In this document: positions 38,518 to 63,815 of the stretch, in pieces
How the letters are laid out: every line of letters starts with the position of its first letter
Numbering within the stretch: the first letter of the stretch is position 1
Assembly (NCBI GenBank): GCA_032622095.1
Contig: CP136062.1
Span: 150,530,875 to 150,594,874 of the forward strand
Direction: 5' to 3'
DNA: 64,000 nt
Source of the DNA: Siphonodentalium dalli
Lineage: Eukaryota; Mollusca; Scaphopoda; Gadilida; Siphonodentaliidae
Program-made: the position numbers and the translations under genes
The notes under the pieces: generated by a model
Told to the model about the DNA's origin: nothing
Database searches by the model: none
Seen by the model: the letters and a program-made list of their open reading frames with translations, nothing else

Positions 38518-39163
38518 GGTGACACTCCACAGTTTCTGCAGGGATTGGTGCAAAAATAAGGGGGCATCAATTCAATGAAAAATAACAGAAATGTGATCCC
38601 ACAACACATATACAATGTATATATACCTGGGTTGAGCATATACTAGGCTTAAAGATTTTGGTACAGAATTGTCATTTTAGTGGGGGTAGCAAGAGTTATG
38701 CCCCTTGATTGTGTGCCTGAAAAATGAAATTTTGATGCAAAAATGACCAAAATAAGCGATTTTCAGGCTCGTGGGACACAAAAACCAGAAGATCTGTGGT
38801 ATAGCCGCCTATGTTGTCTGGAAGAACACTGTTTCCTCACAAAAATATCAAAAAATTTCAAACTTCTCACCACTGTAAGTTTAAAAAAAATATTTTTCAT
38901 GCAGATGACAAATTTTAGGTGCTAAAATGTCACGCTGGTGTCTGGAGCCACTGTTTCGCAGAAATCGCTACTACTTCATACTGGTGGGGTCAAGGTCACA
39001 TGAAACAATATTTTTCAAAACTCAAAGACATCCTCTAAAAATCCACAAATTCATAACTAACCTTCTCTCAATAAACATACCACACCCATGGTGACAGAAA
39101 ACACTGGTACTCTATTCTAAGAAATTTACCCCTACTGATAATTCGAAACTGTGGAGTGTCACC
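38518..39163 (+). mobile_element. T element, subtype C (solo copy, 646 bp)
   Basis: Non-coding element with perfect 19-bp terminal inverted repeats (GGTGACACTCCACAGTTTC at 38518-38536 and its complement at 39145-39163). The other kinase copies give the empty site ATTATAGAAAG; here it reads ATTATA-T-ATAGAAAG, a clean 3-bp ATA duplication. It resembles the other T subtypes in scattered blocks (CAAAAATGACCAAAAT, GCAGATGACAAATTTT, CACTGTTTCGC, CCCCTACTGAT). Confidence 0.88.
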
Positions 39164-45167: not shown

Positions 45168-45813
45168 GGTGACACTCCACAGTTTCTGCAGGGATTGGTG
45201 CAAAAATAAGGGGGCATCAATTCAATGAAAAATAACAGAAATGTGATCCCACAACACATATACAATGTATATATACCTGGGTTGAGCATATACTAGGCTT
45301 AAAGATTTTGGTACAGAATTGTCATTTTAATGGGGGTAGCAAGAGTTATGCCCCTTGATTGTGTGCCTGAAAAATGAAATTTTGATGCAAAAATGACCAA
45401 AATAAGCGATTTTCAGGCTCGTGGGACACAAAAACCAGAAGATCTGTGGTATAGCCGCCTATGTTGTCTGGAAGAACACTGTTTCCTCACAAAAATATCA
45501 AAAAATTTCAAACTTCTCACCACTGTAAGTTTAAAAAAAATATTTTTCATGCAGATGACAAATTTTAGGTGCTAAAATGTCACGCTGGTGTCTGGAGCCA
45601 CTGTTTCGCAGAAATCGCTACTACTTCATACTGGTGGGGTCAAGGTCACATGAAACAATATTTTTCAAAACTCAAAGACATCCTCTAAAAATCCACAAAT
45701 TCATAACTAACCTTCTCTCAATAAACATACCACACCCATGGTGACAGAAAACACTGGTACTCTATTCTAAGAAATTTACCCCTACTGATAATTCGAAACT
45801 GTGGAGTGTCACC
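45168..45813 (+). mobile_element. T element, subtype C (solo copy, 646 bp)
   Basis: Same insertion site, ATA flanks and length as the copy at 38518-39163, with one difference noticed (TTTTAATGGGGG versus TTTTAGTGGGGG). It was copied with the 6650-bp block rather than inserted independently. Confidence 0.88.
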
Positions 45814-48450: not shown

Positions 48451-49097
48451 GGTGACACTCCACAGTTTCAACAGGTATGGGCCCAGAAATAGGGGGCCCA
48501 TAGATTCATTGAAATTTATCTGGAGTATGATCCCAGACCATATAGACAATATATATATGCCTGAAATTAGTACAGAATAGGCATTCAGAATTTGATACAT
48601 AATTTCCATAATATATGGGCTATCAAGAGTTATGGCCCTTGATCTTTTGATCGAAAATGTGATTTTTATTCAAAAAATGACCAAAATATTGCATTTTCAT
48701 ACCCAAGAGGCACGAATACCAGATTTTTTCAAGCATGCTCACCAATGTTGGTTTAAAGGCCTCTGGCTTCCAACATCAATGTGAAAAAATTTCAAACTTT
48801 CGCCGTTAAATTTTCCAGAAAATCAATTTTTAATGCAGATGACAAATTTTGGGTGCTAAAAAATTGACCCAGTATCTAGAGCCACTGTTTCGCAGAAAAC
48901 GCTACTGCTGTCTATGGGTGGGGTCAAGGTCACTTGCACTTAATTTTTTCATCAGTCTAGAACACCTTCTAAAATTACACAAATTCATATCCCACCTTGT
49001 CTCAATATACATACCACATGAATGGTGCCAGAAACCACTAGCACTTTATATCTATAAAATCACCCCTACTGATCATTCGAAACTGTGGAGTGTCACC
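48451..49097 (+). mobile_element. T element T1, subtype A (647 bp)
   Basis: 19-bp inverted termini intact. Left flank is satellite (GATGTA); right flank is TTAA followed by U1. It differs from T2 and T3 at several positions (GAAATTTATC, CCCAGACC, CATGCTCACC, CACTTGCACTT), so it is an older or separate copy. Open frames up to 90 codons inside show no recognisable protein. Confidence 0.88.
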
Positions 49098-49939
49098 TTA
49101 AGGGGAATGCAATTTCATTAATCTTTAATAGGGACCACACCTCCATATTCTCTGCATTATACCGCTTAAAATGATATATTACACCCCATGCGTTATTGCA
49201 ATCACAGGCAGCAAGATTGGGTGGGGATTTACATGCACCCCCATGATTTCACCTCTTTTGGGTCTTTCAGAACCCAATGACGTTATGCTTGACGTAGTGA
49301 CAAAATGTATATATTCAACCATCATTTATAGCTTGAAAAAGGTCTGAAATGCTAAAATGTTGTATAAAATATATTATGAGATGCATATTTCCCTCAGATA
49401 TCAAAATAAAACATAATATTTCATGCAACTACTATCTTTAATACTCTCCCAAAACCATGGGTTAAACAATTCCAAGTCCTATTAAGCATTAAGGGAAAGC
49501 TATACAAGGTTATGACATCACATGAACAATATGTTGTCAAGTGAAATATGTCCAGAGAAACCTGAATTATTATATTTCACACTTGTGAGTAAGAAAGACT
49601 GAATATCTAATCTGTTAGTATACTGTGTAATGTCAATGTCAGCCTTTTCAGCTAAGATTCAAGGAGCATGATGTCATGAAGAAGTACCCATCATCTAAAA
49701 AATCATCAATAACAATACACATGAACCACCACCACCACCCCCCCCCCCCCACTGCTCCAAGACTCCATATCCCCACCAATTTATATGTCTAAAGGCCACC
49801 TGTATTGGAATATCCATAGAAGAATGGTGTATTTAACATAAAATGTTCCTTCTAACTGAGCAGATTTGCTAAAAATGATTTTCAATGTAAATATTTGTCA
49901 AGTTGACAGATGATAATGGTGCTATTTGCTGGTCTTTAA
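49098..49939 (+). mobile_element. U segment U1 (non-autonomous internal region, about 842 bp)
   Basis: Begins TTAAGGGGAATGCAAT and ends TTTGCTGGTCTTTAA. It is followed in tandem by U2 sharing the TTAA at 49936-49939. No open frame of note. Its first 200 bp resemble the start of the internal region at 53835 (TATACCG.TTAAAATGATATAT), and its end resembles the end of that region at 58285. Contains a C run near 49738. Interpreted as an internally deleted relative of the transposase-bearing element. Confidence 0.65.
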
Positions 49940-50776
49940 GGGGAATGCAATTTCATTAATCTTTAATAGGGACCACACCTCCATACTCTCTGCATTATAC
50001 CGCTTAAAATGATATATTACACCCCATGCGTTATTGCAATCACAGGCAGCAAGATTGGGTGGGGATTTACATGCACCCCCATGATTTCACCTCTTTTGGG
50101 TCTTTCAGAACCCAATGACGTTATGCTTGACGTAGTGACAAAATGTATATATTCAACCATCATTTATAGCTTGAAAAAGGTCTGAAATGCTAAAATGTTG
50201 TATAAAATATATTATGAGATGCATATTTCCCTCAGATATCAAAATAAAACATAATATTTCATGCAACTACTATCTTTAATACTCTCCCAAAACCATGGGT
50301 TAAACAATTCCAAGTCCTATTTAGCATTAAGGGAAAGCTATACAAGGTTATGACATCACATGAACAATATGTTGTCAAGTGAAATATGTCCAGAGAAACC
50401 TGAATTATTATATTTCACACTTGTGAGTAAGAAAGACTGAATATCTAATCTGTTAGTATACTGTGTAATGTCAATGTCAGCCTTTTCAGCTAAGATTCAA
50501 GGAGCATGATGTCATGAAGAAGTACCCATCATCTAAAAAATCATCAATAACAATACACATGAACCACCACCACCACCCCCCCCCCCCCCACTGCTCCAAG
50601 ACTCCATATCCCCACCAATTTATATGTCTAAAGGCCACCTGTATTGGAATATCCATAGAAGAATGGTGTATTTAACATAAAATGTTCCTTCTAACAGCAG
50701 ATTTGCTAAAAATGATTTTCAATGTAAATATTTGTCAAGTTGACAGATGATAATGGTGCTATTTGCTGGTCTTTAA
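49936..50776 (+). mobile_element. U segment U2 (about 841 bp)
   Basis: Tandem duplicate of U1 with few changes (CATACTCTC, CCTATTTAGC, CTAACAGCAG). Ends with TTAA at 50773-50776, immediately before T2. Confidence 0.65.
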
Positions 50777-51423
50777 GGTGACACTCCACAGTTTCAACAG
50801 GTATGGGCCCAGAAATAGGGGGCCCATAGATTCATTGATATTTATCTGGATTATGATCCCAAACCATATAGACAATATATATATGCCTGAAATTAGTACA
50901 GAATAGGCATTCAGAATTTGATACATAATTTCCATAATATATGGGCTATCAAGAGTTATGGCCCTTGATCTTTTGATCGAAAATGTGATTTTTATTCAAA
51001 AAATGACCAAAATATTGCATTTTCATACCCAAGAGGCACGAATACCAGATTTTTTCAAGCATGGTCACCTTTGTTGGTTTAAAGGCCTCTGGCTTTCAAC
51101 ATCAATGTGAAAAAAATTCAAACTTTCGCCGTTAAATTTTCCAGAAAATCAATTTTTAATGCAGATGACAAATTTTGGGTGCTAAAAAATTGACCCAGTA
51201 TCTAGAGCCACTGTTTCGCAGAAAACGCTACTGCTGTCTATGGGTGGGGTCAAGGTCACTTTCACTTAATTTTTTCATCAGTCTAGAACACCTTCTAAAA
51301 TTACACAAATTCATATCCCACCTTGTCTCAATATACATACCACATGAATGGTGCCAGAAACCACTAGCACTTTATATCTATAAAATCACCCCTACTGATC
51401 ATTCGAAACTGTGGAGTGTCACC
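50777..51423 (+). mobile_element. T element T2, subtype A (647 bp)
   Basis: Intact 19-bp inverted termini, flanked by TTAA on both sides. One difference from T3 noticed (CACCTTTGTTGG versus CACCTATGTTGG). With U3 and T3 it forms a compact T-U-T unit. Confidence 0.88.
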
Positions 51424-51428
51424 TTAAG

Positions 51429-52265
51429 TTAAGGGGAATGCAATTTCACTAATCTTTAATATGGACCACACCTCCATATTCTCTGCATTATACCGCTTAA
51501 AATGATATATTACACCCCATGCGTTATTGCAATCACAGGCAGCAAGATTGGGTGGGGATTTACATGCACCCCCATGATTTCACCTCTTTTGGGTCTTTCA
51601 GAACCCAATGACGTTATGCTTGACGTAGTGACAAAATGTATATATTCAACCATCATTTATAGCTTGAAAAAGGTCTGAAATGCTAAAATGTTGTATAAAA
51701 TATATTATGAGATGCATATCTTCCTCAGATATCAAAATAAAACAGAATATTTCATGCAACTACTATCTTTAATACTCTCCCAAAACCATTGGTTAGACAA
51801 TTCCAAGTCTTATTTAGCATTAAGGGAAAGTTATACAAGGTTATGACATCACATGAACAATATGTTGTCAAGTGAAATATGTCCAGGGAAACCTGAATTA
51901 TTATTTTTCACACTTGTGAATAAGAAATACTGAATATCTAATCTTTTAGTATACTGTGTAATGTCAAAATCAGCCTTTTCAGCTAAGATTCAAGGAGCAT
52001 GATGTCATGAAGAAGTACCCATCATCTAAAAAATCATCAATAACAAACAATACACATGAACCACCCCCCCCCCCCCACTGCTCCAAGACTCCATATCCCC
52101 ACCAATTTATATGTCTAAAGGCCACCTGTATTGGAATATCCATAGAAGAATGGTGTATTTAACATAAAATGTTCCTTCTAACTGAGCAGATTTGCTAAAA
52201 ATGATTTTCAATGTAAATATTTGTCAAGTTGACAGATGATAATGGTGCTATTTGCTGGTCTTTAA
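51429..52265 (+). mobile_element. U segment U3 (about 837 bp)
   Basis: Third U copy, more diverged from U1/U2 than those are from each other (TATGGACC, CATATCTTCC, CCATTGGTTAGAC). Preceded by an extra TTAAG (51424-51428) after T2. Contains an expanded C run near 52064. Confidence 0.65.
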
Positions 52266-52912
52266 GGTGACACTCCACAGTTTCAACAGGTATGGGCCCA
52301 GAAATAGGGGGCCCATAGATTCATTGATATTTATCTGGATTATGATCCCAAACCATATAGACAATATATATATGCCTGAAATTAGTACAGAATAGGCATT
52401 CAGAATTTGATACATAATTTCCATAATATATGGGCTATCAAGAGTTATGGCCCTTGATCTTTTGATCGAAAATGTGATTTTTATTCAAAAAATGACCAAA
52501 ATATTGCATTTTCATACCCAAGAGGCACGAATACCAGATTTTTTCAAGCATGGTCACCTATGTTGGTTTAAAGGCCTCTGGCTTTCAACATCAATGTGAA
52601 AAAAATTCAAACTTTCGCCGTTAAATTTTCCAGAAAATCAATTTTTAATGCAGATGACAAATTTTGGGTGCTAAAAAATTGACCCAGTATCTAGAGCCAC
52701 TGTTTCGCAGAAAACGCTACTGCTGTCTATGGGTGGGGTCAAGGTCACTTTCACTTAATTTTTTCATCAGTCTAGAACACCTTCTAAAATTACACAAATT
52801 CATATCCCACCTTGTCTCAATATACATACCACATGAATGGTGCCAGAAACCACTAGCACTTTATATCTATAAAATCACCCCTACTGATCATTCGAAACTG
52901 TGGAGTGTCACC
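52266..52912 (+). mobile_element. T element T3, subtype A (647 bp)
   Basis: Near-identical to T2. Left flank is CTTTAA from U3; right flank TTAA leads directly into a kinase gene fragment. Confidence 0.88.
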
Positions 52913-53170: not shown

Positions 53171-53186
53171 AACAACTTTTACTATA
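53171..53186 (+). repeat. 16-bp satellite scrap before T4
   Basis: AACAACTTTTACTATA from the satellite monomer, fused to the kinase fragment. It ends in ATA, the same three bases that follow T5 at 58934. Confidence 0.75.
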
Positions 53187-53834
53187 GGTGACACTCCACA
53201 GTTTCTGGGCCCGATCTCTAAAAATTGCGCCTGAGGCTATTTCAGTTGTTACTATTCTGATCATTGTTAAAAATAGTCCCAACAATATATATATGCTTAG
53301 AATGGCCACATTAAAGACTTTCAAATTTTGTATAAAAAATGAGAAATGATTGTTAGAGTGAAGAGTTATTCCCCTTGGTCTTCATTGCAAAAACACTGTT
53401 TTTCGTGCAAAAAATGACCAAAATTGGGCTAATTTTCCCCAAATTTACTGGAAAACAAGAAAATCTACAGTAAATACACCTATATATCTTGATAAAACAC
53501 TGTCTCTACGATCAAATATCAAAAATTGCCAACTTTCTCACCACTGTAACTTTTTTAAATTAATTCTGAATGCAGACGACACTTTTATAATGAAAAAAAC
53601 ACACTCTTATATTCATGGGCACTGTTTCGCGCAAAGCCCAGTTGAACTGTATAGGTGAAGCCACGCCCACTTTTTTCTATTTTTAGAAAAACTATAACAG
53701 TCACTCAAAAATTACCACATTCCATAACTCACCTATCAGTAATATATATACCACAGGCATGGTGTTCAATAGTACTGAGTCTATTTTATTAAAAATTTAC
53801 CCCTACTGATCATTCGAAACTGTGGAGTGTCACC
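53187..53834 (+). mobile_element. T element T4, subtype B (left terminal direct repeat, 648 bp)
   Basis: Begins GGTGACACTCCACAGTTTC and ends with its complement. Internal sequence differs from subtypes A and C but keeps the common blocks (AAAATGACCAAAAT, CACTGTTTCGC, CCCCTACTGATCATTCGAA). Followed by TTAA. Confidence 0.88.
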
Positions 53835-54357
53835 TTAATAGAAAACTAATTTTATAAAATCAAGCCAACTCCCATGCCATGTTATTCTGTGGGTTATACC
53901 GATTAAAATGATATATGACACCCTATGTCACCAATGACTAGTGTTAAGGAACAACCAGCCAGTTAAAGGTGCATATTACTGAAAAAAATAAAATAAAACC
54001 CAATTTAAAGGTGTATGACGTTAAATATCAGATTCACGACGTCGCAACAAAACTCCCTTGTTGTTCTATGCAATAATCAGTTTAAATGGCACCAAAACAA
54101 TAGATACTCATTGACACAAGTTTCTTTTTCCCAAAGCTAGGTGATACCACATATGTACATGCATGCATGCCTCATATATGTGGGTTTGAATGCCTTTAAG
54201 TTGGTCTGGGGCACCTGCCACAGCCTCACAGTCATTAATGTGACATCAAATTAGGAAACAATATGTTGCCATGGCTGGCAGTGACGTTTTTCTTTGTTGG
54301 GATCAGATCATTTAAGTATATACAGACTTTGTTTAACTCAGATAGCAATTATTTAAA
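53835..54357 (+). other. 5' part of internal region I, upstream of transposase
   Basis: 523 bp without a gene. The first 180 bp align by eye with the start of U (TTAA, then the conserved TATACCG.TTAAAATGATATAT and a CGACGTCGCAACAAAA block). A TATATA at about 54317-54322 lies some 36 bp before the transposase ATG and could be its TATA box. Confidence 0.5.
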
Positions 54358-56265
54358 ATGAGAAAACACAAAGGAGGGCGAAAGAAGGATAATGGAGGTC
54401 GTTTTCAAAAGGGACATGTATATTATGGGACAGCATGTAATTATATTGTTTCTGCTGGGAATGAAGCTGTGTCAAACAGTACTATCAGTAGTTCAGTTGT
54501 CAGTGCTGGGATGGAACCAATCCACAGACCAGACCCAGGAATTTATTCTGAGGCCAAGTTATTAATGCAAGAGTCAGTTGTTCCTTCAAAATTGAGACCA
54601 AGAGAGAAGGAGACAACTGACAGAGATTCAACACCTTATTCTGAAGGAGAAAATATTATAGCTAATGTTCAAATACTGGATGAGCTTTATGGAACATTCT
54701 ATATTGAACATGGAAGTGCCTGTGATAATCTGTGTCCAAAGATGATAGTTATTAGGCGCCAGGGTTTATGTATTTCTGCTGCGCTCAAATGTAGATTTTG
54801 TGATTTCGTAGGATCTGTTCGCGCCCTTTCCTCGCAAGTAAGAGCCATAACTAGGAAACGTGGACCTGCCAAAGGTAGCTTGAATGACCGAATGTGTCTT
54901 GCAATGTTAAAAACAAAAACTGGTCCGTCCGATATGCACATGATATTATCATGCCTCAATATACAGCCACCATCTCAGTCTTTGCTGCACACTAGGCTCA
55001 ATGAATTGGCTGACATAGTAATAAAAGAGAACAAGGTAGCACTGACTGGGAACCAATCCTTCATTGGAGATGTACTGAAACTCGCTGATGCAGATGAGAA
55101 AGTTGATCTTGCTATTGATACAGCCTATAATAACCGGGTGCAAGCAGGGTATGAGGCAGGGACGCAGGCTGTATCAATAGCAACAGAACATATGACATCA
55201 AAGAAATTGCCACTGTCTTTGCATGTATCTAATAAGCTATGCACCAAAAGGAAATGCAGCCATGATCTAAAAGAACATCCAGACTGCAGAAAAAACTATT
55301 TATCCACAGACTCAATAGCATCAAGTGAAGCTAAATCTTTGCAATGTCACTTTAAAAATATTTCAACTCCAGCTATTCTTACAGTGCGCTCAATAACCAC
55401 TGATGCCAGTACCCAAATGGGGAAAGCCATTACCGATCATTCAAAGAAGACAGGTTACAAAATTACCCATTACCACTGTTATATACACAAGATGAGGACA
55501 TTACAGAAGAAAGTAAAGAAGATGAAATTATGTACAGAGTTGAATGGAATGGATAAAACTATATACAGTGAAAAACTATCATCATGCACAAGAAGACGCG
55601 TCCAGACAGAATTAACAAGAATTCATAAAGCCTTCCCCTCCAGCGATAAATTCATTGAAAAATCTGTTGCGGCCATAAAAAATATTGTCCCCTGCTTCTT
55701 CAACAATCACCAGAACTGTCGGCGTTCATCTCTTGTCTGTATAGCTCATTTGAAATCATATACCATGAAACACCTCCCTTATGGACAGCATCTCAAACTG
55801 AGTGGAAAAGGAAAGAAGGAGCTGACAAAAGTATTAGACGATATTGTAAAACCAGAAGTTATTTCCAAGATGTCCAAGCTCTTCTCAACTAATAAAAATG
55901 AAAATCTGCATCAGCGAGTCTTCACGTATGCACCTAAAAATACAACCTGGAGTAGAAACTTCCCAGCCATGTGTCATTCGGCACTTCATTCAGCTACCTT
56001 TGGCACAGGAAGATCTACAGTTATGCTTGCGAAACAGATAGGGCTAAACTGTAGTAATACCGATGTATTAAAAGCTGAAATGAAGAAAAGAGACCAAAGA
56101 CAGAAATATCACCGGACACAAAAATCTACATTTGAGTCAAAGCAGAAACGATATTTTGCCCGAAAACTTAAATATGACAGGAAAGTTTTGCAGGGATCTC
56201 TGTACACCGCAAATAATGAAGCGGCTACAAAATGCGGACACTCATATGCAATTGATCCACAATAA
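54358..56265 (+). CDS. DDE transposase-like protein (Mutator/Kolobok-type fold), 635 residues
   Basis: Long uninterrupted frame, by far the largest in the window. Seen: basic N-terminus (KHKGGRKK); a Cys cluster C122/C126 with C145/C148, likely zinc-binding; D254 in AIDTAYNNR followed by an aromatic/Gly stretch; D349 in TTDAST; a CxxH motif (C374-H377, HCYIHKM); and E515 in KNENLHQRV followed by TYAPK. An Asp-Asp-CxxH-Glu series of this kind is the catalytic core of MULE, hAT, Kolobok and related RNase-H-fold transposases. The order and spacing, especially D-x2-Y-x2-R and NExLH, best fit the metazoan Mutator-like transposase domain. The C-terminus is highly basic. It should cut and join the T ends. 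A poly(A) signal lies 98 bp after the stop. The superfamily assignment is from memory of motifs, not a search. Confidence 0.75.
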   Translation: MRKHKGGRKKDNGGRFQKGHVYYGTACNYIVSAGNEAVSNSTISSSVVSAGMEPIHRPDPGIYSEAKLLMQESVVPSKLRPREKETTDRDSTPYSEGENIIANVQILDELYGTFYIEHGSACDNLCPKMIVIRRQGLCISAALKCRFCDFVGSVRALSSQVRAITRKRGPAKGSLNDRMCLAMLKTKTGPSDMHMILSCLNIQPPSQSLLHTRLNELADIVIKENKVALTGNQSFIGDVLKLADADEKVDLAIDTAYNNRVQAGYEAGTQAVSIATEHMTSKKLPLSLHVSNKLCTKRKCSHDLKEHPDCRKNYLSTDSIASSEAKSLQCHFKNISTPAILTVRSITTDASTQMGKAITDHSKKTGYKITHYHCYIHKMRTLQKKVKKMKLCTELNGMDKTIYSEKLSSCTRRRVQTELTRIHKAFPSSDKFIEKSVAAIKNIVPCFFNNHQNCRRSSLVCIAHLKSYTMKHLPYGQHLKLSGKGKKELTKVLDDIVKPEVISKMSKLFSTNKNENLHQRVFTYAPKNTTWSRNFPAMCHSALHSATFGTGRSTVMLAKQIGLNCSNTDVLKAEMKKRDQRQKYHRTQKSTFESKQKRYFARKLKYDRKVLQGSLYTANNEAATKCGHSYAIDPQ

Positions 56266-56362
56266 TGTATGCAGTTGATGTTGCTTTAATTATAATTCAA
56301 CTTAATTTCAAAACAACAGAAATAGGTTGTGTGATGTATTTATTCCACACCCACTGCCATTG

Positions 56363-56368
56363 AATAAA
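56363..56368 (+). terminator. Poly(A) signal AATAAA of the transposase gene
   Basis: First AATAAA after the stop codon (98 bp), followed by a GT-containing stretch. Plausible 3' end signal. Confidence 0.5.
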
Positions 56369-56470
56369 TATTAGTGTATACCTCCAGTGGAATACAAGCC
56401 GCAACTGTTCTTGTTGATGTTGTTGCCAAGAAAGATGATGTACATTATGTCAATCATCTGCTTCCGGTGA

Positions 56471-56514
56471 CCCCCCCCCCCCATAACTTCTAGTTCGCCC
56501 CCCCCCCCCTACCC
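56471..56514 (+). repeat. Paired poly-C runs
   Basis: Two C homopolymers of about 10 separated by a short spacer in the intergenic part of I. Similar C runs occur in U1-U3 and at about 58097, so poly-C is a habit of this genome or element. Confidence 0.7.
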
Positions 56515-56636
56515 CGATAACTACTGGGTATTTGTCAGACTTAAATTACAATAAAGGTAGCTATAGTAACTAGTAACAATGAAGGTGACATTCATGGACT
56601 GATTGAACTTATCTGACTGAATGGTGTAGAATGAAT

Positions 56637-56811
56637 ACAGAACACAACTTGTATCATAATCTCAAATCTTTTATCAAACCGGCCGGTTGCGGATGGTGCA
56701 AAGTTATATTTTGCTCAAGCTATGCTCCCGCGAAATATAAAATATATCCTTGTGCCATCCGCAACTCAATTGATAAAGGAGTCTTGATTTAAGGTGCGTG
56801 TTGTGTTCTGT
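56637..56811. repeat. Large imperfect inverted repeat (hairpin element, about 175 bp)
   Basis: The arm starting ACAGAACACAAC at 56637 is matched by GTTGTGTTCTGT ending at 56811. Inner blocks also pair: CTTTTATCAA with TTGATAAAGGAG, and GTTGCGGATGG with CCATCCGCAAC. It lies between the convergent genes and could be a nested fold-back MITE or a structural boundary. Confidence 0.65.
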
Positions 56812-57265
56812 CTATATTTATATATGCTGAACAGATGCTGAAACAGAAGCATAGATTTATTATCAAGAAAACATTCACAGATTGAATCACCATGAAGTAA
56901 ATTTTAACTTGTTACCCACCTATAACTGACTAAAGACAATCGCGCCACCCCCTGCGCTCATCATTTATCCTGGAACAGTAGAGTTGAATTTCACTTGTTT
57001 CGTTCGTACTCAGATGCACATATCTGATAGCAGAGGTACCAGCAAATTATAATGTAGAGTATCACACTGTCATCTGGTCCAATTAACATGTGAGGAAATG
57101 AACTAAAACTTTATAACTTTCATTTTTGTGTATATAACAGTGGTAATGGTCAATTTTGTCACCTGTCTTCTTTAAGTGGGTACTGGCATCAGTGGTTATT
57201 GAGCGTACTGCAAGAATAGCTGGAGTTGAAATATTGCAAGACAAATGTTTGATCTTTACATTAAA

Positions 57266-57676
57266 TCACAAAAGGCAATCAGCATACCCCCTGTGGTGCG
57301 AACATTCACCATTCCCTCTGCAAATCTGACGTTTTGAATTAACTCCTCCTGGCTCCATGCTGAGATGATCCACCCGTATACATGTCTTCTTGTGACAGAG
57401 GTGCGAAATATGATATTTTTCAAGAAGATGTTGTTGATGGAGCAAATAATATGCAAGACGATGAACTAAAACTTTTCTACTTTGCTTCATTTCATTAGAT
57501 TTATCAATGTATGTTAAATTGTATGTGCAGTACCCATCTGCATTGGGTGTACCAACATATACCCTGCACCGACCACTGTCCTTGCTACATTTGTCAAGAT
57601 GATTCCTGAATCTCTGCCTCTCATCAGTGCTCAGCTCCGTTAGAAACAGATCGCACTGTCTGGAAGAACGAGCCAT
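57266..57676 (-). CDS. His-Me finger (HNH-like) homing-type endonuclease, I-PpoI zinc-loop family, 136 residues
   Basis: C-terminal half reads HISHLCHKKTC, then HLSMEP, VNSKR, C, GEC, HH and DCLL. This is the zinc-binding loop pattern of His-Me homing endonucleases. Putative catalytic H92 and metal-binding N113 are 21 residues apart, as are H98 and N119 of I-PpoI. C94, C99 and H104 sit where I-PpoI has C100, C105 and H110 of one zinc site, probably completed by C37. C119, C125, H127/H128 and C134 would form the second site. At 136 residues it is slightly shorter than I-PpoI (about 163). Predicted to cleave double-stranded DNA. The Met at 57676 is the first in frame. It is convergent with the transposase and about 1 kb from it; a possible AATAAA on this strand is at 56856-56861. 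An upstream exon cannot be excluded. Confidence 0.78.
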   Translation of the reverse strand: MARSSRQCDLFLTELSTDERQRFRNHLDKCSKDSGRCRVYVGTPNADGYCTYNLTYIDKSNEMKQSRKVLVHRLAYYLLHQQHLLEKYHISHLCHKKTCIRVDHLSMEPGGVNSKRQICRGNGECSHHRGYADCLL

Positions 57677-57810
57677 ATCGTGCTGGACTGGACCTGAGGA
57701 TGGAAAACAGATGAAAACTACACTAGTGTGGGTAGACTTAATGCTATAATGCTATGGGCTGTCACTTTATTTGAATGGAAAATGCATTAATATAAATCTG
57801 AATTTGCATG

Positions 57811-57980
57811 AAGTGCAAATTTCCAAATAACATGCCGCATAACTCATTTGCACTTAGGAATAGCAAAGTAGCACTTAAGTACAGCAAACATGATTGCACT
57901 TAAATGCAGAAAGATTGCACTTGGTTGCACTTAAGTTCAATTTATCTATTCCATTGCAAATTAGTTATGCTTAAGTGCAA
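57811..57980. repeat. Subterminal cluster of TTGCACTTA / TAAGTGCAA motifs
   Basis: At least seven occurrences of the core in both orientations: about 57811, 57848, 57871, 57894, 57915, 57925 and 57971. They sit between the endonuclease gene start and the right end of the internal region. Such clusters often bind transposase or a regulator; here that is inference. The motif pair is self-complementary around CTTAAG. Confidence 0.6.
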
Positions 57981-58285
57981 ATATTAATGCATGCCACTTC
58001 AGTTTTAGAAATGCAAATTAACTGCTGACAGCCCAACGCACTAAGCAAGAAATCTACCTAATCACACTAGTGGGCAGATGATTTATGACCTGATGACCCC
58101 CCCCCCCCAATCCCATTAAGGGCCCCAGAGGCAGAAAATGGTGAGAAAATATTACCCAAAGCTTTTCAAATGAAGGGCACTGTAGATATATCAGCTGTTT
58201 AAAACACCACAATGTATTATTGGGCTGTGTGGTCTGATTAGAAACATATTTCTGTGATAATTTATGGGTAATGCTGGGCTTTGAA
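57981..58285 (+). other. 3' part of internal region I
   Basis: No gene seen. Contains a C run at about 58097. The final bases, GCTGGGCTTTGAA, resemble the end of U (GCTGGTCTTTAA), supporting a common origin of I and U. Confidence 0.5.
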
Positions 58286-58933
58286 GGTGACACTCCACAG
58301 TTTCTGGGCCCGATCTCTAAAAATTGCGCCTGAGGCTATTTCAGTTGTTACTATTCTGATCATTGTTAAAAATAGTCCCAACAATATATATATGCTTAGA
58401 ATGGCCACATTAAAGACTTTCAAATTTTGTATAAAAAATGAGAAATGATTGTTAGAGTGAAGAGTTATTCCCCTTGGTCTTCATTGCAAAAACACTGTTT
58501 TTCGTGCAAAAAATGACCAAAATTGGGCTAATTTTCCCCAAATTTACTGGAAAACAAGAAAATCTACAGTAAATACACCTATATATCTTGATAAAACACT
58601 GTCTCTACGATCAAATATCAAAAATTGCCAACTTTCTCACCACTGTAACTTTTTTAAATTAATTCTGAATGCAGACGACACTTTTATAATGAAAAAAACA
58701 CACTCTTATATTCATGGGCACTGTTTCGCGCAAAGCCCAGTTGAACTGTATAGGTGAAGCCACGCCCACTTTTTTCTATTTTTAGAAAAACTATAACAGT
58801 CACTCAAAAATTACCACATTCCATAACTCACCTATCAGTAATATATATACCACAGGCATGGTGTTCAATAGTACTGAGTCTATTTTATTAAAAATTTACC
58901 CCTACTGATCATTCGAAACTGTGGAGTGTCACC
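58286..58933 (+). mobile_element. T element T5, subtype B (right terminal direct repeat, 648 bp)
   Basis: Reads identical to T4 over its whole length by eye, in the same orientation. Left flank TTTGAA, right flank ATAAATCGGGG, which is inverted satellite. Confidence 0.88.
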
Positions 58934-59109
58934 ATAAATCGGGGGTGGGTAAATTCCAAGTTTCCGTGAAATGCACGGAAACATTTATTCATCAGTTTTT
59001 TTTTATAGTAAAAGTTGTTTCGTAATCTAAAGTGAACAATCCAAGTTTCTCAACTTGTCATTGCTCCAAAGTGGAATAGTTTTTCAGGACATTGTAAATG
59101 AAGAAATCT
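58934..59109 (-). repeat. Inverted satellite segment (about 0.7 monomer)
   Basis: The only stretch of satellite on the opposite strand in the window. It reads GGGTGGGTAAATTCC through ACATTGTAAATGAAG and then switches abruptly to + orientation at CACAAGTTATAAAGG. It marks an inversion breakpoint next to T5. Confidence 0.9.
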
Positions 59110-60948
59110 TCACAAGTTATAAAGGTCACGACATTGCCAACCGGACTTGGATGTATAAAAGCCTCCTTTATCAAAGATTTCTTCATTTACAATGTCCTGA
59201 AAAACTATTCCACTTTGGAGCAATGACAAGTTGAGAAACTTGGATTGTTCACTTTTGATTACGAAACAACTTTTACTATAAAAAAAATCTGATGAATAAA
59301 TGTTTCCGTGCATTTCACGGAAACTTGGAATTTCCCCGCCCCCGCAATCGATGAACGTCACAGACAAGTTATAAAGGTCACGACATTGCCAACCGGACTT
59401 GGATGTATAAAAGCCTCCTTTATCAAAGATTTCTTCATTTACAATGTCCTGAAAAACTATTCCACTTTGGAGCAATGGCAAGTTGAGAAACTTGGATTGT
59501 TCACTTTTGATTACGAAACAACTTTTACTATAAAAAAAATCTGATGAATAAATGTTTGCGTGCATTTCACGGAAACTTGGAATTTACCCACCCCCGCAAT
59601 CGATGAACGTCACAGACATGTTATAACGGTCACGACATTGCCAACCGGACATGGATGTATAAAAGCCTCCTTTATCAAAGATTTCTTCATTTACAATGTC
59701 CTGAAAAACTATTCCACTTTGGAGCAATGACAAGTTGAGAAACTTGGATTGTTCACTTTTGATTACGAAACAACTTTTACTATAAAAAAAAACTGATGAA
59801 TAAATGTTTCCGTGCATTTCACGGAAACTTGGAATTTACCCACCCCCGCAATCGATGAACGTCACAGACCAGTTATAAAGGTCACGACATTGCCAACCGG
59901 ACTTGGATGTATAAAAGCCTACTTTATCAAAGATTTCTTCATTTACAATGTCCTGAAAAACTATTCCACTTTGGAGCAATGACAAGTTGAGAAACTTGGA
60001 TTGTTCACTTTTGATTACGAAACAACTTTTACTATAAAAAAACAATCTGATGAAAGCAAGTTTCCGTTTATTTCACGGAAACTTGGAATTTCCCCACCCC
60101 CGCAATCGGTGAACGTCACAGACAAGTTATAAAGGTCACGACATTGCCAACCGGACTTGGATGTATAAAAGCCTCCCTTATCAAAGATTTCTTCATTTAC
60201 AATGTCCTGAAAAACTATTCCACTTTGGAGCAATGACAAGTTGAGAAACTTGGATTGTTCACTTTTGATTACGAAACAACTTTTACTATAAAAATAATCA
60301 GATGAATAAATGTTTCCGTGCATTTCACGGAAACTTGGAATTTCCCCGCCCCCGCAATCGATGAACGTCACAGACAAGTTATAAAGGTCACGACATTGCC
60401 AACCGGACTTGGATGTATAAAAGCCTCCTTTATCAAAGATTTCTTCATTTACAATGTCCTGAAAAACTATTCCACTTTGGAGCAATGGCAAGTTGAGAAA
60501 CTTGGATTGTTCACTTTTGATTACGAAACAACTTTTACTATAAAAAAAATCTGATGAATAAATGTTTGCGTGCATTTCACGGAAACTTGGAATTTACCCA
60601 CCCCCGCAATCGATGAACGTCACAGACAAGTTATAAAGGTCACGACATTGCCAACCGGACTTGGATGTATAAAAGCCTCCTTTATCAAAGATTTCTTCAT
60701 TTACAATGTCCTGAAAAACTATTCCACTTTGGATTGTTCACTTTTGATTACGAAACAACTTTTACTATAAAAACAATCTGATGAAAGCGTTTCCGTGCAT
60801 TTCACGGAAACTTGGAATTTCCCCGCCCCCGCAAATTTCTTCATTTGAAAAACTATTTAACTTTGGAGCAATGACAAGTTGAGAAACTTGGATTGTTCAC
60901 TTTTGATTACGAAATAACTTTTACTATACAAAAATCTGATTCCGTGCA
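59110..60948 (+). repeat. 252-bp satellite array, block S16 (about 7 monomers)
   Basis: Normal orientation. It shares TTATAACGGTCACG and the GTTTATTTCACGG hairpin variant with S11/S14, so it belongs to that subfamily. A 1010-bp repeat of four monomers is visible (59308 and 60318). One monomer near 60730 has lost about 27 bp. Confidence 0.93.
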
Positions 60949-61083
60949 GGACAAAACCATGAACTGCAAAAAAGGAAAAATTAACGGGGATTCCCCTTCC
61001 ATACAAACGACAGAACCAGTCCTTGTGAGTCTTGGAAATGTTTGTATATAAAATTTGGTTGAGAATTTTTTTAAAGAAAAAAA

Positions 61084-61893
61084 TTATTGTAACCACTTAT
61101 GTTCGCGGATTTCAGAGAGGGTTATGCGTTTATTCACATCTGGTTCCAGAAGTCTCAATACTAAATCGACACAGTCATTCCCAACTTCGAGCGATTTTGG
61201 CAGCAGTGTTTCTCCGGGGGTTTGATTCTTCACAATTTTCTGGATATATGAGTTGCTGAATGGCATTCTTCCAAACACCAATGAGTACATAATTATGCCC
61301 AAGCTCCATATATCTGCCATAAATGGATCGTAGTTTTCGCCCCGTATTATTTCAGGGGAAATATATGAAGAGCTCCCACAGAAAGTATTGCTCAATTCCT
61401 CCATGTTGGACATGCGCCTCGCAAAGCCAAAGTCGGTTATCTTTGCTTTGCCATTTAAGTCGAGCAGGATATTTTCCAATTTGAGATCTCGGTGCGCTAT
61501 CTTCTGCTCATGCAGATTAACAACACCGTGAATAATTTGTTTGAATAATTGCTTTGCTTCGCCTTCGTTCATGGGGCCATTGTCAGTAATCTTGTCCAAG
61601 AGGTCACCTCCCCGAACCAGTTCCATGAAGATGTAAATATTTTCCTTCAGTTCGATAACATTATGCAGCTTGACAACGCTATCTGAACTAATGCTCGAGA
61701 GAACGTTTATTTCTCTCGGTAAGAACTTTACTAGGAACTCGGGTGAAGCATTCGTCTTATTGATTATTTTCACCGCCATTTCGACGGCTTTCTTTCCATT
61801 ATTGTATACGCATTCTCTGATCTTGCCGAACGACCCTTCGCCCAGCTTTCGACCCAGAATGTATCCTTTTTTCGCAAGAAATGAATTTTCCAT
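61084..61893 (-). CDS. TSSK-family protein kinase, copy K13
   Basis: Full 269-residue kinase on the far side of the transposon cluster, with G-loop, K42, D136, DFG and SPE intact. It has two private substitutions, E55V in FLVKFLP and K165E in SNMEEL. The first replaces a residue of the TSSK-typical FLEKFLPREI stretch before helix C; the effect is unknown. D189 is GAT as in the left part of the array rather than GAC as in K9-K12. TATA box kept. Confidence 0.9.
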   Translation of the reverse strand: MENSFLAKKGYILGRKLGEGSFGKIRECVYNNGKKAVEMAVKIINKTNASPEFLVKFLPREINVLSSISSDSVVKLHNVIELKENIYIFMELVRGGDLLDKITDNGPMNEGEAKQLFKQIIHGVVNLHEQKIAHRDLKLENILLDLNGKAKITDFGFARRMSNMEELSNTFCGSSSYISPEIIRGENYDPFMADIWSLGIIMYSLVFGRMPFSNSYIQKIVKNQTPGETLLPKSLEVGNDCVDLVLRLLEPDVNKRITLSEIREHKWLQ

Positions 61894-61981
61894 TTTTATT
61901 ATAGAAAGTTTGAACTTTGTCCATTTCCTTTATTTATAGATTTTATTCCAAACGACCCGAGCATCGGAGCGTGACCCTTGT

Positions 61982-63169
61982 CATAAAGGTCACGACATTG
62001 TCAACCGGACTTGGATGTATAAAAGCCTCCTTTATCAGAGATTTTTTCATTTACAATGTCCTGAAAAACTATTCCACTTTGGAGCAATGACAAGTTGAGA
62101 AACTTGGATTGTTCACTTTTGATTACGAAACAACTTTTACTATAAAAAAAAATCTGATGAAAGCAAGTTTCCGTGCATTTCACGGAAACTTGGAATTTCC
62201 CCACCCCCGCAATCGGTGAACGTCACAGACAAGTTATAAAGGTCACGACATTGCCAACCGGACATGGATGTATAAAAGCCTCCTTTATCAAAGATTTCTT
62301 CATTTACAATGTCCTGAAAAACTATTCCACTTTGGAGCAATGACAAGTTGAGAAACTTGGATTGTTCACTTTTGATTACGAAACTTTTACTATAAAAAAA
62401 ATCTGATGAATAAATGTTTTCGTGCATTTCACGGAAACTTGGAATTTACCCACCCCCGCAATCGATGAACGTCACAGACAAGTTATAAAGGTCACGACAT
62501 TGCCAACCGGACTTGGATGTATAAAAGCCTCCTTTATCAAAGATTTCTTCATTTACAATGTCCTGAAAAACTATTCCACTTTGGAGCAATGACAAGTTGA
62601 GAAACTTGGATAGTTCACTTTTGATTACGAAATAACTTTTACTATAAAAACAATCTGATGAAAGCATTTTACGGAAACTTGGAATTTCCCCGCCCCCGCA
62701 ATCGATGAACGTCACAGACAAGTTATAAAGGTCACGACATTGCCAACCGGACTTGGATGTATAAAAGCCTCCTTTATCAAAGATTTCTTCATTTACAATG
62801 TCCTGAAAAACTATTCCACTTTGGAGCAATGACAAGTTGAGAAACTTGGATTGTTCACTTTTGATTACGAAACAACTTTTACTATAAAAAAAATCTGATG
62901 AATAAATGTTTCCGCGCATTTCACGGAAACTTGGAATTTACCCACCCCCGCAATCGATGAACGTCACAGACAAGTTATAAAGGTCACGACATTGCCAACC
63001 GGACTTGGATGTATAAAAGCCTCCTTTATCAAAGATTTCTTCATTTACAATGTCCTGAAAAACTATTCCACTTTGGAGCAATGACAAGTTGAGAAACTTG
63101 GATTGTTCACTTTTGATTACGAAACAACTTTTACTATAAAAAAAATCTGATGAAAGCAAGTTTCCGTTT
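61982..63169 (+). repeat. 252-bp satellite array, block S17 (about 4.7 monomers)
   Basis: Contains a 4-bp deletion in the ACGAAACAACTT block (about 62383), a shortened hairpin (GAAAGCATTTTACGG at about 62663) and CCGCGCATTTC at about 62913. Ends in GTTTCCGTTT where T6 is inserted. Confidence 0.93.
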
Positions 63170-63815
63170 GGTGACACTCCACAGTTTCGAATGATCAGTA
63201 GGGGTGATTTTATAGATATAAAGTGCTAGTGGTTTCTGGCACCATTCATGTGGTATGTATATTGAGACAAGGTGGGATATGAATTTGTGTAATTTTAGAA
63301 GGTGTTCTAGACTGATGAAAAAATTAAGTGCAAGTGACCTTGACCCCACCCATAGACAGCAGTAGCGTTTTCTGCGAAACAGTGGCTCTAGATACTGGGT
63401 CAATTTTTTAGCACTCAAAATTTTCATCTGCGTTAAAAATTGATTTTCTGGAATATTCAACGGCGAAAGTTTGAAATTTTTTCACATTGATGTTGGAAGC
63501 CAGAGGCCTTTAAACCAACAAAGGTGACCATGCTTGAAAAAATCTGGTATTCGTGCCTCTTGGGTATGAAAATGCAATATTTTGGTCATTTTTTGAATAA
63601 AAATCACATATTCGATCAAAATATCAAGGGCCATAACTCTTGATAGCCCATATATTATGGAAATTATGTATCAAATTCTGAATGCCTATTCTGTACTAAT
63701 TTCAGGCATATATATATTGTCTATATGGTTTGGGATCATAATCCAGATAAATTTCAATGAATCTATGGGCCCCCTATTTCTGGGCCCATACCTGTTGAAA
63801 CTGTGGAGTGTCACC
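63170..63815 (-). mobile_element. T element T6, subtype A, reverse orientation (646 bp)
   Basis: Reverse complement of the T1-T3 subtype with intact 19-bp inverted termini. It is closest to T1 at the CACTTGCACTT position. Inserted in satellite on its left; joined through TTAA to an inverted U on its right. Confidence 0.88.

Follow-up and report, generated by a model that had tools for sequence, protein, structure and literature searches.

A composite DNA transposon is found at positions 53187-58933 of a 64,000-nucleotide stretch of the Siphonodentalium dalli genome (assembly GCA_032622095.1, contig CP136062.1, positions 150,530,875 to 150,594,874), referred to here as the window. Two long terminal direct repeats (LTDRs), T4 and T5, enclose an internal region (INT, or I), and the whole is written T-I-T (Table 1). 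T4 and T5 are both 648 bp long, share their orientation, and show 0 differences. Each opens with GGTGACACTCCACAGTTTC, and the reverse complement of this 19-mer closes the repeat. An earlier description made from the letters alone (the sequence-only reading) had reported these repeats and their inverted ends, an Asp-Asp-CxxH-Glu protein, a convergent I-PpoI-like endonuclease, and the lack of a reverse transcriptase, all of which were borne out. No reverse transcriptase was seen among the stop-to-stop frames touching INT, which apart from the two genes reach at most 93 aa and were inspected without a Pfam search, and an LTR (long terminal repeat) retrotransposon was therefore rejected.

The larger protein is a Kolobok-type DDE transposase. 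Its residues D254, D349, C374xxH377, and E515 are conserved in a relative at 44% identity, with the catalytic triad assigned by eye. Two putative zinc fingers, likewise read by eye, are conserved in two families: a CCHC finger after the first Asp (C295, C300, H302, C310) and another between the C/DxxH motif and the Glu (C446, H451, C454, C461). The nuclease gene lies downstream on the complementary strand, convergent to the transposase gene as in other KolobokP elements. Its frame (57751-57266, minus strand) spans 161 aa from stop to stop and matches zf-His_Me_endon (PF05551) with an E-value of 3.7e-13. As a single sequence the nuclease matches I-PpoI (1evw) weakly (E 0.11); a profile built from it and five relatives matches with an E-value of 4.5e-7. 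The alignment of these six nucleases and the I-PpoI profile match contain the residues and spacing of the His-Cys box, SHLCxxxxCxxxxHLxxExxxxN. Single-sequence structure prediction of the nuclease gave a mean pLDDT (predicted local distance difference test) of 50.9 and was not used.

Table 1. Features of the T-I-T element and of related repeats in the window.
Feature	Positions	Strand	Remarks
Left target-site duplication ATA, outer edge	53184..53186	.	Matching 3-bp pair
Left LTDR (T4)	53187..53834	+	648 bp, GG..CC termini, 19-bp inverted ends
Left LTDR/INT junction, proposed nuclease site	53829..53843	+	INT tip TTAA at 53835-53838; 11/15 I-PpoI site matches
Internal region (INT, I)	53835..58285	+	4451 bp
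Kolobok-type DDE transposase	54358..56265	+	635 aa; Pfam 'Mutator' PF20700, E 1.7e-37
Inverted copy of transposase segment, second Asp to CxxH	57126..57235	-	~110 bp, in frame directly behind nuclease stop
I-PpoI-like His-Me nuclease	57266..57676	-	136 aa from ATG at 57676; PF05551 and I-PpoI profile
Right INT/LTDR junction, proposed nuclease site	58277..58291	-	INT tip TGAA at 58282-58285; 9/15 matches
Right LTDR (T5)	58286..58933	+	648 bp, identical to T4
Right target-site duplication ATA, outer edge	58934..58936	.
Non-autonomous array T'-U-U-T'-U-T'	48451..52912	+	LTDRs 48451-49097, 50777-51423, 52266-52912
T' copy	38518..39163	+	ATA on each side; repeat of T' copy at 45168-45813
T' copy adjoining U tip	63170..63815	-

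From its architecture and domain features, T-I-T is firmly assigned as an autonomous KolobokP element (LTDR-INT-LTDR). KolobokP is known from seven animal phyla and was described in a study covering 228 families (Kojima and Bao, 2022, Mob DNA 13:24, PMC9587614). KolobokP elements form solo LTDRs and multimers, and their INT-INT joints have lost 3-4 bp; target duplications measure 3-5 bp, whereas other Kolobok elements target TTAA (Kojima and Bao, 2022). T4 and T5, which belong to the ~660-bp class, have the characteristics of KolobokP LTDRs, which fall near 450 or 660 bp with short inverted ends of their own and RR..YY termini. Solo T copies, an array, and an INT-INT joint short of one tetramer were likewise found, and the duplications at all six T-I-T places are 3 bp long and varied, not the TTAA general to Kolobok. 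The 3-bp duplication had at first suggested Zator and Academ, and the literature search on these led to KolobokP. In the literature searched, KolobokP and long terminal direct repeats in DNA transposons (the latter searched from 2021) were found only in PMC9587614; PMC12750733 cites that study for bivalve long non-coding RNAs.

The composite form resembles several other mobile elements. Bacterial composite transposons and IS26 translocatable units also have two direct mobile end units that enclose and carry an internal region (Kojima and Bao, 2022), but in T-I-T the transposase gene is in the internal region rather than in an end unit. LTR retrotransposons share the long identical direct ends, the solo ends, and the variant pattern of the two ends. 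In contrast to them, T-I-T has no reverse transcriptase that could be seen, each LTDR has its own inverted termini, and the LTDR also occurs alone with its own duplication.

The genome (2.23 Gb, 9 contigs) was searched with T and I and the loci were then fetched. Only the best candidates per search were scored, and copy numbers are therefore lower bounds. T-I-T was found at six places (A, the window, and B to F), including an array T-I-T-I-I-T on C4 (B) and a copy with a T'-U array inserted into its INT (F). At F, TAA stands on either side of this insertion, and the INT of the window has a single TAA there, the empty site. In each of the six places a 3-bp duplication is present at the outer edges only (ATA, TAA, TTT, TCA, TAT, and TTT), while the inner flanks between LTDR and INT are constant. 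These matching outer and constant inner flanks demonstrate that T-I-T moves as a unit, one of the two possibilities raised in the sequence-only reading. No counter-evidence to this movement or to the KolobokP identity was found. Solo T copies with a complete site carry 3-bp duplications as well (3/3; CGA, TAT, and ACA), with loci L017 and L018 counted once because their flanks are common to both. Older, broken copies are present (L014, L016, L020, L021, and L028), and some I fragments in the search list have no T match beside them (e.g., C6:161686153-161686474). T-I-T itself is a young autonomous element that was probably active recently.

Comparison of 13 LTDRs from the six elements, with older or broken copies (L014-L021 and L024-L028) left out, revealed that the two ends of an element are kept alike, in agreement with the sequence-only reading. 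Among 14 variant states, 8 were singletons, 5 were concordant on both or all LTDRs of the element or elements concerned, 1 was mixed (position 371), and 0 were side-specific. Left and right LTDRs differ within an element at 0, 0, 2, 2, 3, and 2 positions, and between elements at 4.2 on average, with equal values for same and opposite sides. The concordant variants and the absence of side-specific ones indicate that both ends of an element stem from one recent sequence, as in LTR elements. Copying during transposition and later exchange could both produce this likeness, and the data fit either. The endonuclease may assist in it, as the sequence-only reading also suggested.

A possible role for the nuclease emerged from the inner edges of the element. 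Nucleases of the I-PpoI type cut a semi-palindromic site and leave 4-nt 3' overhangs (TTAA). Scored against the 15-bp I-PpoI site, the left LTDR/INT junction of the window element is the top 15-mer of the entire element, with LTDR-internal positions reaching at most 10/15; for the right junction, 30 of 11464 positions score equal or higher. Five families were compared: A (the window element), U (the T' array of the window), L029/L030, L031, and L032, the last three having 57%, 44%, and 25% amino acid identity to A, respectively. Left and right junctions match at 11 and 9 positions in A, 10 and 8 in U, 9 and 8 in L029, 12 and 12 in L031, and 9 and 9 in L032. In the U array the two top positions are both junctions, as are four of the six top positions in L031. 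Moreover, the INT tip is TTAA at 7/10 inner junctions versus 2/31 outer LTDR flanks (Fisher p 1.6e-4), a value that overstates the case because the families have common ancestry and a single duplication supplies both flanks of each insertion. The outer flanks were hand-picked from the fetched loci (1/29 with TTAA), and two more, one with TTAA, were then added. With random 9-mers for the ten tips, the observed match sum was never reached in 20000 trials, subject to the same reservation about ancestry and duplication.

The orientation of the tips was also compared. A target duplication would leave direct repeats at the two tips of INT, whereas a nuclease site facing each LTDR would leave inverted ones. 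Over their first six bases, the two tips match in inverted orientation at 4 (A), 5 (U), 5 (L029), 6 (L031), and 6 (L032) positions. The contrast with direct repeats is drawn from one family, L032, in which the tip tetramers match 4/4 when inverted and 2/4 when direct. From these comparisons, the LTDR/INT junction is proposed as the recognition site of the His-Me nuclease, with a probability of roughly 0.5. The element family itself was already known, and the proposal is new: neither the likeness of the junction to the I-PpoI site nor the sequences GGTAGC and CTCTCTTAAGG were found in the main text of PMC9587614.

INT-INT joints were examined with a gapped pattern, which identified 26 U-U joints at 9 places. 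All 26 contain exactly one TTAA, and one lacks the adjacent G. The pattern requires one T of the tetramer, so that joints with none would escape it, and the independent events number fewer than 26 because arrays multiply joints. The sole INT-INT joint of the A family retains TGAA. Re-ligation of TTAA overhangs would be expected to leave one such tetramer.

As the overall explanation, a KolobokP unit mobilized by its outer ends or by a single LTDR, with LTDRs that are made alike, is very probable; the part played by a nuclease acting at the junctions is about as likely as not. Transposase acting on the outermost LTDR ends would move the composite, and acting on both ends of one LTDR it would move that LTDR alone. 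LTDRs could be made alike through recombination or through copying via a one-LTDR intermediate. The nuclease would recognize GNNACC, then TTAA, then mostly purines, an I-PpoI-like arrangement at the junction, and its cut would leave a 4-nt overhang equal to the INT tip, whereas the majority of outer ends and solo LTDRs would stay intact. From such a break, the LTDR side could then invade the other LTDR, giving rise to arrays and alike LTDRs, and two breaks could free an LTDR, with re-ligation producing an INT-INT joint with one tetramer. The further suggestion that the nuclease is a captured ribosomal DNA (rDNA)-type homing endonuclease, whose self-cutting at the inner edges leads to LTDR exchange, arrays, and alike ends, is tentative and falls just short of an even chance. 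The nuclease shares with I-PpoI the active-site and zinc-ligand pattern and the proposed TTAA-centered site; it differs in being encoded by a transposon rather than by a group I intron, and in sequence the similarity is weak. A Kolobok end beside a TTAA target, in L031 for example TTAA followed by GGTAGC, reproduces the larger part of the I-PpoI site, a resemblance that may have amounted to mutual pre-adaptation.

Several observations weigh against recognition of the junction by the nuclease. The I-PpoI likeness was noticed post hoc and then sought in four more families, and three of the five families compared have common LTDR ends. Two of the six top positions in L031 are internal, and in L029 and L032 non-junction positions match the I-PpoI site equally or better. 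The right tip of A is TGAA, both tips of L032 are TAAA, and in the array at place F the right tip of U is TGAA, versus TTAA in the U of the window. L030 has an apparent joint with a larger deletion, and no INT-INT joints were found in L031 and L029 with exact patterns. One TTAA per joint is also expected from microhomology closure.

This last point leads to the strongest alternative, in which the transposase accounts for the TTAA tips, as its relic or its requirement, and INT-INT joints result from LTDR excision by the transposase with microhomology closure at TTAA. Kolobok elements target TTAA, and KolobokP-1_MeMe has TATA at both INT tips and one TATA at its joints (Kojima and Bao, 2022); the one TTAA in 26/26 U-U joints fits as well. 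The duplications found here are 3 bp long and varied, which indicates that the transposase does not demand TTAA. The inverted rather than direct tips of L032 also speak against a relic, which moreover leaves unexplained why LTDR end and tip together resemble the I-PpoI site. A transposase origin of the tips is a serious possibility at somewhat less than even odds, and the nuclease-site proposal stands at roughly even odds against it.

Alternatively, T-I-T could form in one step if a circle carrying one LTDR and one INT integrated replicatively, similar to an IS26 translocatable unit, whereby the LTDR is copied and an outer duplication is made. This route predicts 3-bp duplications at the outer edges, inner flanks that stay constant, and LTDR pairs that are identical at insertion, as observed. 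LTDR exchange accounts for the same facts, and extra steps would be needed for INT-INT joints and for solo LTDRs that carry duplications of their own; no circle was seen, and the reads were not searched for circles. Circle integration is regarded as unlikely.

The role of the nuclease and the maintenance of the composite form were left open by Kojima and Bao (2022), who suggested that the nuclease cuts within the LTDR, or at abutting LTDR ends on a circle, and so provokes unequal exchange. Their proposal fits the multimers and the alike LTDRs. Against it, the 15-mer of the window element that most resembles the I-PpoI site is its left junction and not part of the LTDR interior, although for a nuclease that has diverged such likeness gives weak guidance. 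Cutting at these other positions is rated as still less probable than circle integration. Finally, the idea that two miniature inverted-repeat transposable elements (MITEs) flank an unrelated gene pair by chance, raised in the sequence-only reading and favored by the existence of solo T copies, is refuted by the recurrence of the unit at six places with constant inner and matching outer flanks.

Related repeats occur elsewhere in the window and genome. The T copies and T-U-T arrays noted in the sequence-only reading are T' copies and T'-U-T' arrays related to T. The outer flanks of the array at 48451..52912 differ (GTA vs TTA), and its U-U joint has a single TTAA at 49936-49939. One U copy (51424-51436) begins TTAAGTTAAGGGG, with an extra TTAAG exactly at the proposed cut site. 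The inverted transposase segment behind the nuclease gene is present in the young A-type copies L009-L013 and L022 and was treated as family-specific because it is absent from L029-L032; it could give a hairpin transcript. L032 (G000:C2:178172000-178181999) is a distant KolobokP that forms a perfect 4495-bp tandem array, and its LTDR, at 452 bp, falls in the second length class. For the distant nuclease relatives L033 and L035, no LTDR pair was found in the fetched stretch and hence no junctions. KolobokP nuclease fragments (residues ~29-63) form 78-79-bp tandem repeats, satellite-like, at G000:C3:298462244-298509663. The sequence GCTACCTTAAAG has 525 genome occurrences versus 206 for the reversed control, and among 100 places listed many form convergent pairs ~1.3 kb apart (e.g., G000:C1:13632708-13634023); they probably represent an extensive non-autonomous family akin to L031. 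Positions 1-48000 and 59000-63000 of the window contain tandem arrays of a protein kinase gene, bordered by runs of a 252-bp repeat in which long frames stay open. The kinase open reading frames are 269 aa long, and the one tested matched Pkinase with an E-value of 5.8e-68.

If the KolobokP nuclease does cut the LTDR/INT junction, the question left open by Kojima and Bao (2022) reduces to a simple cleavage assay. It would also suggest why an rDNA-type homing endonuclease settled in a transposon.

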